Part shown: piece after piece, positions 29,901 to 31,301 of the stretch
How the letters are laid out: every line of letters starts with the position of its first letter
Position numbering within the stretch: position 1 is the stretch's first letter
Source: Nanobdellota archaeon
GTDB lineage: Archaea > Nanobdellota > Nanobdellia > Woesearchaeales > GW2011-AR4
DNA: 34,254 bases
Assembly (NCBI GenBank): GCA_022564635.1
Contig: JADFLA010000009.1
Span: forward strand, 1 to 34,254
Direction: 5' to 3'
Translations under genes and position numbers: made by a program
The notes under the pieces: generated by a model
Told to the model about the DNA's origin: nothing
Seen by the model: only the letters and a program-made list of their open reading frames with translations
The model's database searches: none

Positions 29901-29926
29901 AGAAATAATGTACCTTAATTAATGTA

Positions 29927-30027
29927 CGGCAGTGATCTAATGGCTATGATTCGAGCTTCCCAAGCTCGCCATCCGGGTTCAAAAATAAATAAAAGAAATT
30001 TATGGCTTGAAAGTCCCGGCTGCCGTA
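29927..30027 (+). tRNA. tRNA-Gly(CCC) with an intron in the T loop
   Basis: Acceptor stem ACGGCAG (29927-29933) pairs fully with CTGCCGT (30020-30026), discriminator A at 30027, CCA not encoded. The D arm has ATC/GAT and a GG in the loop. Anticodon stem CGAGC/GCTCG closes the loop TTCCCAA (29957-29963), so the anticodon is CCC (Gly). T stem CCGGG (29973-29977) pairs with CCCGG (30015-30019), but the loop is 37 nt instead of 7. Removing 29984-30013 leaves TTCAAAT, a perfect T loop. The first pair is A-U rather than the usual G-C of tRNA-Gly, while C2-G71 and G3-C70 are kept. Confidence 0.85.
29984..30013 (+). other. Predicted 30-nt tRNA intron between positions 59 and 60
   Basis: TTCA (29978-29981) pairs with TGAA (30008-30011), leaving 3-nt bulges AAA (29982-29984) and AGT (30012-30014) on the two strands. 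ATAAAT/ATTTAT (29985-29990 and 29998-30003) forms the intron helix. Cutting each bulge between its second and third base, as archaeal splicing endonuclease does, gives exactly the canonical loop TTCAAAT. The intron side has a small internal loop, so the motif is a relaxed bulge-helix-bulge. Confidence 0.7.
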
Positions 30028-30110: not shown

Positions 30111-31301
30111 ATGGTATTATTTACTGAAGATGTTAATGACAGGTTGAAAAGTCATATAGACGAATTAGAGCATTTTGAATTAATGCATGTTGGACTTCTT
30201 CCTAAGGGATGGATTCGAGTAAAACCTATAATTGTAGCATTAAAAAAAATTGATGAACGGGCGATTGAAGATTTAATTAGATTGCATAAACAAAATAGTA
30301 ATCATAGTTTATATTCTAAAGTAATGCCACTATTACTATCTCTTCATAGGGATTTACAAGATATGTTAACAGACATTCCAACTCTTGATGAGGAGAAAAA
30401 AGAAACTAAAATACTGAGCAGCTTAATTGATGAAATAAAAAGTATAATCACTAGCGACGAATGGAAAGATAAAGCTCTCATTAGTAAAATTAACTCTTCA
30501 GATCTTATTTATCGAAGAAATGAGGATACTAATCTGGCCATGATGAGATATTTAGTGCTAGCAGATCAGTTCAAAATTGCATTAAGTAAGAGACTAGGAA
30601 TCGATAATGCTTGGCACTATATACTTCCATTAGCGAGAGACCAGTTTATTCGTTTATATAGGGAAGTATACGTTGACGTAGGTAAGCTTCCACAAGAAAG
30701 GATTAAGGAGCTTGTATACCATCCGGAAAATATAGGTAAAGCACAAGACAAAAATAGAATTTGGAGGTTTCAGACTGCAAAATGGACAGTGAAAAATATA
30801 CATATAAAAGATATGGGTGTATGGCCTGCCATGGGAGAAACTGATATCTTTACCACTAGCGGGAATCTTCCTGACACCGCAATAAAAATTTTTACTATAT
30901 TAAATGGAAAAGCAAAAGAACAATCCTTATCTTCCAGATTTCGCTATCCGAATCGTATAATCAAAGGAATAATTAATAAGATGCCACTTTTAAAAGTAAA
31001 CGAATGGCCACCAAAAGTAAAACCCCATATTCCGGATGAAGTAATTAATAGTATATACTCTATACGTCATTACGCCGATATTATTTATCGTTTATTTCCA
31101 ATAATTATTATGCAAAGAGGAAAATTGACAAGGCGAGTTATAAAAAATAATGAAACAAAGAAACAGTTTGGATTTAGCTACAAAGTTACAAAATATGACA
31201 TCGACGATGGTAGCCACAGAGCACTAGCATTTGCCTTACTTGGAATAAAGAGATTAAAATGTTTTGTGGGAAGTAGTTTATATAGTTCTAACGTATCCTA
31301 A
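30111..31301 (+). CDS. Unknown protein with C-terminal ParB/sulfiredoxin-like DGxHR motif
   Basis: 396 residues, no signal peptide or membrane segment. The first 350 residues are helical-looking with many charged and aromatic positions and match nothing I recognise. Near the end, YDIDDGSHRALAFALLGIKRLKCFV (motif DDGSHR at 365-370) resembles the DGxHR-A-AA--LG segment of the ParB/Srx fold used in DNA-binding partition proteins, some nucleases and DndB/DGQHR-type proteins. The rest of a ParB domain (GxxR boxes, helix-turn-helix) is not clear, although LTRRV and KLPQER could be partial matches. It is the only gene between the repeats beside tRNA-Gly. It could be a mobile-element, defence or replication protein; function not assigned. 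Confidence 0.55.
   Translation: MVLFTEDVNDRLKSHIDELEHFELMHVGLLPKGWIRVKPIIVALKKIDERAIEDLIRLHKQNSNHSLYSKVMPLLLSLHRDLQDMLTDIPTLDEEKKETKILSSLIDEIKSIITSDEWKDKALISKINSSDLIYRRNEDTNLAMMRYLVLADQFKIALSKRLGIDNAWHYILPLARDQFIRLYREVYVDVGKLPQERIKELVYHPENIGKAQDKNRIWRFQTAKWTVKNIHIKDMGVWPAMGETDIFTTSGNLPDTAIKIFTILNGKAKEQSLSSRFRYPNRIIKGIINKMPLLKVNEWPPKVKPHIPDEVINSIYSIRHYADIIYRLFPIIIMQRGKLTRRVIKNNETKKQFGFSYKVTKYDIDDGSHRALAFALLGIKRLKCFVGSSLYSSNVS

Follow-up and report, generated by a model that had tools for sequence, protein, structure and literature searches.

A putative relaxed BHB intron in the T loop of tRNA-Gly(CCC) and its relatives across woesearchaeal tRNA genes

The window, by which we mean the whole stretch of 34,254 nucleotides that was analysed, carries a tRNA-Gly(CCC) gene whose T loop is extended by an insert between positions 59 and 60 (Table 1). 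The remainder of the gene reads as a regular tRNA, with U8, A14, the D-loop GG, A21, the anticodon loop TTCCCAA and a discriminator A, and its acceptor and T stems are perfect, as the first-pass annotation had stated; the gene start given there, 29927, was one base late, the acceptor stem beginning at 29926. Removal of 29984-30013 leaves TTCAAAT, a normal 7-nt loop in a normal cloverleaf, and on this shortened sequence ARAGORN calls tRNA-Gly(CCC), which together with the sequence itself confirms the proposed location of the insert. On the window as it stands, ARAGORN calls no tRNA and Rfam finds none at the gathering score, nor any reported as a tRNA at E<=10, so both programs miss the interrupted form, as had been suspected of standard finders. 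A 396-aa protein without a Pfam match (window 30111-31301, forward strand) adjoins the tRNA gene, and a scan for sigma-70-type promoters and terminators returned nothing above chance.

Table 1. Features of the tRNA-Gly(CCC) gene, in positions of the window.
Feature	Position	Strand	Basis
tRNA-Gly(CCC) gene, including discriminator A (30027)	29926..30027	+	model R1, 86.8 bits over 29926-30026
Acceptor stem, 5' strand ACGGCAG	29926..29932	+	7/7 pairs with 30020-30026 (CTGCCGT); covaries across 34 aligned genes
D arm	29935-29950	+	direct sequence reading
Anticodon stem-loop	29952-29968	+	direct sequence reading
Anticodon CCC	29959..29961	+	sequence; ARAGORN on spliced form
T stem, 5' strand CCGGG	29973..29977	+	5/5 pairs with 30015-30019 (CCCGG)
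T loop, 37 nt	29978-30014	+	direct sequence reading
T loop, 5' exon part UUCAAA (54-59)	29978..29983	+	pairs with 30008-30011; homologous pairs covary A-U/G-C
UUCA (54-57), exon strand of the central BHB helix	within 29978..29983	+	
Putative 30-nt intron at 59/60, AATAAATAAAAGAAATTTATGGCTTGAAAG	29984..30013	+	homologous introns in relatives L021, L022, L023, L035
UGAA, intron strand of the central 4-bp BHB helix	30008..30011	+	4/4 pairing with UUCR in 146/167 genes
3' splice-site bulge AG/U, predicted cut after 30013	30012..30014	+	3-nt bulge in fold
3' exon: U60, T stem 3' strand, acceptor 3' strand, A73	30014..30027	+	sequence

The predicted fold of the precursor beats 200 of 200 shuffled sequences (z -2.8). 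It stacks a helix UUCA(A)/(U)UGAA on the T stem, and the minimum-energy structure shows a 3-nt AGU bulge on the 3' side and, between the two splice sites, the 4-bp central helix UUCA/UGAA. On the 5' side, the same structure extends the central helix to 5 bp and places a 2x3 internal loop before the inner helix; with the central helix held at 4 bp, the loop becomes 3x4. A 3-nt bulge had been described on each strand: the one at the 3' site stands, while the one at the 5' site gives way to this internal loop. A strict hBHBh' arrangement, with a 3-nt 5' bulge facing nothing and followed by an inner helix, is thus absent from the window fold, and since the 5' side forms an internal loop, the motif is a relaxed BHB. 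The archaeal cutting rule, applied after the second base of the bulge, yields UUCAAAU, in line with the regenerated TTCAAAT claimed earlier. A group I intron was also considered and ruled out, as the intron measures only 30 nt, has no Rfam match and presents no ribozyme core.

The pairing seen in the window recurs, with compensatory changes, across related genes. Among 186 candidate genes (a few of them likely false), base R57 and intron nucleotide -6 form A-U in 105 cases, G-C in 50, G-U in 17 and A-C in one, with a Fisher p of about 1e-27 for the A/G by U/C table, uncorrected for phylogeny; a minority of genes are mismatched at pair 57. The 60 genes that were not selected by the CCGGG pattern gave 24 A-U, 18 G-C, 7 G-U and 2 A-C, and most of these genes have AG before the cut. 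Intron nucleotide -7 is unconstrained, indicating that the pairing ends at 4 bp, as the BHB rule demands. Near-BHB inner helices are present in 43% of real introns vs 6% of shuffled ones, and family-wide the 5' site is a strict 3x0 in 13% and a 3x1 or 4x1 in 25%, with an inner helix of at least 3 bp. All seven acceptor pairs covary across the intron in 34 aligned genes; because the scanner required a paired acceptor, only this covariation is informative, and not the 100% pairing. With the T-loop insert alone cut out, ARAGORN called 155 of 162 genes, of which it had found 7 before; for the 53 genes without another intron, the count rose from 6 to all 53.

These data bear on the idea that the 37-nt T loop is simply retained, as an enlarged loop, in the mature tRNA. 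We consider it most improbable: insert length differs between tRNAs, from about 13 nt to more than 120 nt, while both the 3' end YGAAAG and its pairing with UUCR are kept, which is expected of splice sites and not of a retained loop, and conventional 37/38 introns are present in several of the tRNAs as well.

The proposal to look for the type of splicing endonuclease in the genome led to a single alpha-type EndA of 191 aa (L019:1474-2049, reverse strand), with the catalytic Tyr, His and Lys kept, and RtcB is present as well (546 bits), which completes the EndA/RtcB pathway. No second EndA or beta subunit was detected in the genome, PF02778 matching only the same gene. The closest solved relative by sequence is chain 3iey_A, the partner of NEQ261 of N. 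equitans. Within a set of 99 genomes, EndA was found in 50 of the 52 near-complete ones, nearly always once (PF01974). Woesearchaeal EndA proteins are mostly about 180-220 aa long, and the loop insert of the Sulfolobales enzyme 2cv8 is absent from 31 of 31 aligned sequences. A strongly conserved block, TW(Y/H)EF(A/S)AKNRVAHSTKK, is shared by the EndA of this genome (L019) and 30 relatives; it is close to N. equitans 3iey_A, unlike M. jannaschii, and is a candidate specificity region.

Relaxed or scattered introns have been linked to (alpha-beta)2 or epsilon-2 enzymes with a CSL/ASL loop (PMC4033280, PMC12397907, PMC7714728), and the substrates given for single alpha-type enzymes are limited to canonical introns or strict hBHBh' motifs (PMC4033280, PMC7714728). 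Judged from its sequence, woesearchaeal EndA may have gained relaxed specificity in another way, or T-loop substrates may suffice for a CSL-less enzyme; the latter could be good enough because the T stem and UUCR are invariant.

Our preferred reading, to which we give a probability of roughly 0.93, is that the window holds a functional tRNA-Gly(CCC) gene with a relaxed BHB intron at 59/60 of the T loop, spliced by EndA and RtcB. Mechanistically, exon UUCR (54-57) of the precursor would pair with YGAA near the 3' end of the intron, and the resulting UUCR/YGAA helix would stack on the T stem across the 3-nt bulge formed by AG and U60. The single alpha-type endonuclease would then be expected to cleave at both ends of the intron, behind A59 and in front of U60, and RtcB to ligate the exons into the normal loop UUCAAAU. 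It is on sequence grounds that we infer this excision and the exact cut sites. The internal loop at the 5' splice site of the window, where a clean 3-nt bulge would be sought, counts against this explanation. The BHB-type intron at 59/60 that had been put forward for a DPANN tRNA-Gly(CCC) is nevertheless supported by restored detection, conservation in relatives, helix covariation, the presence of EndA and RtcB, and the lack of a second copy in the genome searched.

The window gene has many companions in its own genome (G000), where T-loop introns occur in about 12 of the roughly 27 tRNA genes found: Gly(CCC), Gly(TCC), Val(TAC), Tyr(GTA), Asp(GTC), Lys(TTT), Pro(TGG), Pro(GGG), Trp(CCA), Leu(TAA), Glu(TTC) and Phe(GAA). 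About 15 genes have ordinary T loops. Several of the genes have a second intron as well, so that their anticodons were assigned by eye; the acceptor stem is imperfect in Pro(TGG), and the central helix in Gly(TCC) and Phe. Used alone, the Rfam tRNA model places 12 tRNAs above its cut-off in this genome. The architecture scanner gave one match in five shuffles of 180 kb vs 30 real rows, some of which recur in overlapping loci. It also flagged Glu(CTC) and Cys tRNAs, which were rejected, as they have intact T loops followed by repeated 3'-end sequence.

Other features of the tRNA complement in this genome were recorded in passing. Copies of the tRNA 3' end, from T loop to acceptor, lie downstream of tRNA-Glu(CTC) (L018, G000:C37) and tRNA-Arg(TCT) (L014, G000:C56) and look like integration scars. 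The genome also has D-loop introns and long 37/38 introns, and several of its tRNAs have two or three introns (L015:1322-1473, L012, L206, L208).

A closed relative, G044 (one contig, completeness 100%), presents a similar picture, with T-loop introns in 12 of about 25 detected tRNA genes: Asp(GTC), Glu(TTC), Val(GAC), Arg(TCG), Pro(TGG), Ala(TGC), Arg(TCT), Ile(GAT), Gln(TTG), Ile(TAT), Ser(GCT) and Leu(TAA), the anticodons being taken from sequence. Ordinary T loops are found in 13 genes, namely Thr(CGT, TGT, GGT), Gly(GCC), Met(CAT), Lys(TTT), Cys(GCA), His(GTG), Val(TAC), Phe(GAA), Ser(CGA, GGA) and Leu(CAG). No anticodon of G044 occurs both with and without a T-loop intron, and the sole aspartate tRNA found, Asp(GTC), carries one, which makes a pseudogene explanation very unlikely. 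Rather than the isolated oddity it had been taken for, the intron is one of a lineage-wide set.

The chance that the window gene is a dead or decaying copy, with another intact tRNA-Gly(CCC) doing the work, is accordingly slight in the extreme. At 87% completeness the genome could hold a second copy that was not seen, but a search for one, as had been suggested, returned only the gene described here. Moreover, both of its exons are intact with the acceptor stem fully paired, the T-loop-intron form of the gene is kept in relatives G012, G004, G009 and G016, and in G044 twelve anticodons exist only as genes of this form.

The relatives of the window gene extend well beyond these two genomes. A comparison of 147 genomes yielded many related tRNA-Gly genes in which similarity ends at the same base; many relatives have T-loop inserts in Gly(CCC) and Gly(TCC), and Gly(CCC) is intact in L024, L028, L032 and L041. 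We then have the exact pattern CCGGG-TTCRA-gap-YGAAAGT-CCCGG, scanned over 84,980 GTDB genomes, which matched at least 117 stretches; among the matches listed, 109 are archaeal and 8 bacterial. The archaeal matches listed are mostly labelled Woesearchaeota or Nanoarchaeota, with single ones under Vulcanisaeta, Thermoprotei, Bathyarchaeota, Aenigmatarchaeota, Thermoplasmata and Methanosarcinales and two labelled Asgard or Heimdallarchaeota. The full tRNA architecture was found in 106 of these 109 archaeal matches, and none of the 8 bacterial ones listed is a tRNA. The pattern is present in 55 of about 199 sampled genomes of the same order vs 2 of about 172 sampled in the remaining orders of the class, and its reversed form in none of 371 genomes, vs 57 with the true pattern. 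This search sets a lower bound on prevalence, because none of the 12 introns of G044 lies in a tRNA with that T stem; an order-wide search with model R1 was excluded from the estimate, as it mixes intron-bearing and intact tRNAs.

Two families of conserved T-loop introns were observed among these genes. One, of about 70 nt, occurs in distant genomes (L161, L157, L164, L034, L133, G112:C43:17258-17342), shows conserved islands GCAAG, AAGCC and GCGUUG and a paired 3' hairpin, and is hosted by Gly(CCC) in the members read. The other (GGTTTAGCTTRGAAAATCC...TAAAACCTG) lies in Gly tRNAs of L064, L135, L155 and the genomes of family f62. From their sequences, a guide-RNA role is possible for the longer T-loop introns; Rfam, run on ten loci with conserved intron families, reported only one tRNA and an rRNA fragment.

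Several introns are related between different tRNAs of one genome. The Val T-loop, Tyr T-loop and Glu 37/38 introns of G000 are related over 66-80 nt, with identities of 72% (Val-Tyr) and 75% (Val-Glu), and the pairing base differs between Val (G57/C) and Tyr (A57/U). The Glu(TTC) T-loop intron of the same genome (G57/C) belongs to the family of Gly(CCC) introns (A57/U) of relatives. Likewise, the Glu, Arg and Ile T-loop introns of G044 are related, with G57/C in Glu and Arg vs A57/U in Ile, and its Phe 37/38 intron contains the same segment; the Glu and Arg introns match over 30 nt outside the obligatory end, above all 2000 shuffles. Within each related T-loop set, a recipient G57 is matched by C in the intron and a recipient A57 by U. 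That different tRNAs hold related introns, with a pairing base that follows base 57 of the recipient, argues for spread between tRNAs. The base switch would be the trace expected of insertion into a new tRNA, with restored pairing either following or being a condition for it, and reverse splicing, recombination or repeat insertion are candidate routes.

Such a spread may have a simple basis. UUCRA and a T stem closed by G53-C61 are nearly invariant in tRNAs, so that every tRNA carries the exon half of the splice site, and any isotype can accordingly accommodate a working intron with YGAAAG at its end. Introns with this ending would thus be able to spread between the tRNAs of one genome.

An intergenic palindrome of G000, GAAAGCATACTCACTAAAGTTCGTAGCTTTC (L270:1490-1535; G000:C65:4029-4060), resembles the T-loop introns of G044, and a link between dispersed repeats and introns is possible on this likeness. 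The same resemblance, and the fact that BHB constraints force similar intron ends, would fit introns that were inherited vertically at 59/60 and are alike through dispersed palindromic repeats or convergence, and not through transposition. We find this unlikely, as the introns of Val and Tyr (59/60) and Glu (37/38) share long stretches across two positions, and the Glu/Arg match of G044 lies outside the obligatory end and exceeds every shuffle. Tentatively, and at a little less than even odds, we propose that woesearchaeal T-loop introns form a mobile class that uses the universally conserved T loop as a docking site, has spread across isotypes and between 59/60 and 37/38, and is removed by a single loop-less alpha EndA whose specificity became relaxed. 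If true, the rule proposed for scattered tRNA introns, that they depend on loop-bearing (alpha-beta)2 or epsilon-2 enzymes, would no longer hold.

Taken globally, about one in two of the tRNA genes that can be detected in these genomes escapes Rfam and ARAGORN. For a very large order of uncultured archaea, this distorts tRNA counts, studies of codon usage and estimates of completeness; the intron models of tRNAscan-SE 2.0 were trained on Crenarchaeota/Euryarchaeota and Thaumarchaeota (PMC8450103). The introns also preserve, within single genomes, a record of movement between tRNAs accompanied by compensatory base changes, of relevance to how archaeal tRNAs gain introns, and they pose a testable challenge to the view that endonuclease architecture (CSL/ASL loop, heteromeric or epsilon type) limits the introns a lineage can hold.

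Position 59/60 is one of many scattered non-canonical positions for archaeal tRNA introns, for which Crenarchaeota and Nanoarchaeota have been named rich sources (PMC4090602). The introns reported here share with those of Thermoproteales and others their position, the BHB or relaxed HBh'/hBH motif and, often, an additional 37/38 intron (PMC4090602). Unlike in that review set, 59/60 is here one dominant non-canonical site, occupied in nearly half of the detected genes of both genomes, and the host is a DPANN order; our search of the open-licence literature found no papers on T-loop introns of DPANN or Woesearchaeota. In Atabeyarchaeia and Freyarchaeia, Asgard archaea of another phylum, 92-95% of tRNA genes have introns, often non-canonical and multiple, and the accessible portion of the source describes neither a T-loop family nor a shared splice signal (PMC11291895). 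Transposition of tRNA introns has been reported for Thermoproteales (Fujishima et al. 2010, as cited in PMC4033280), and similar introns in different isotypes of one order are common to both cases; here the phylum is another, the pairing base switches together with base 57, and family members are also found at 37/38. The ARMAN epsilon-2 and crenarchaeal (alpha-beta)2 enzymes with ASL/CSL loops (PMC12397907) likewise belong to archaeal hosts with diverse intron positions, whereas woesearchaeal EndA is the product of a single gene without the loop insert. Position 59/60 and BHB splicing were thus already known; new are the scale, the universal exon-side splice signal, the evidence for transposition in this order and a single EndA without the loop supposed to be necessary.
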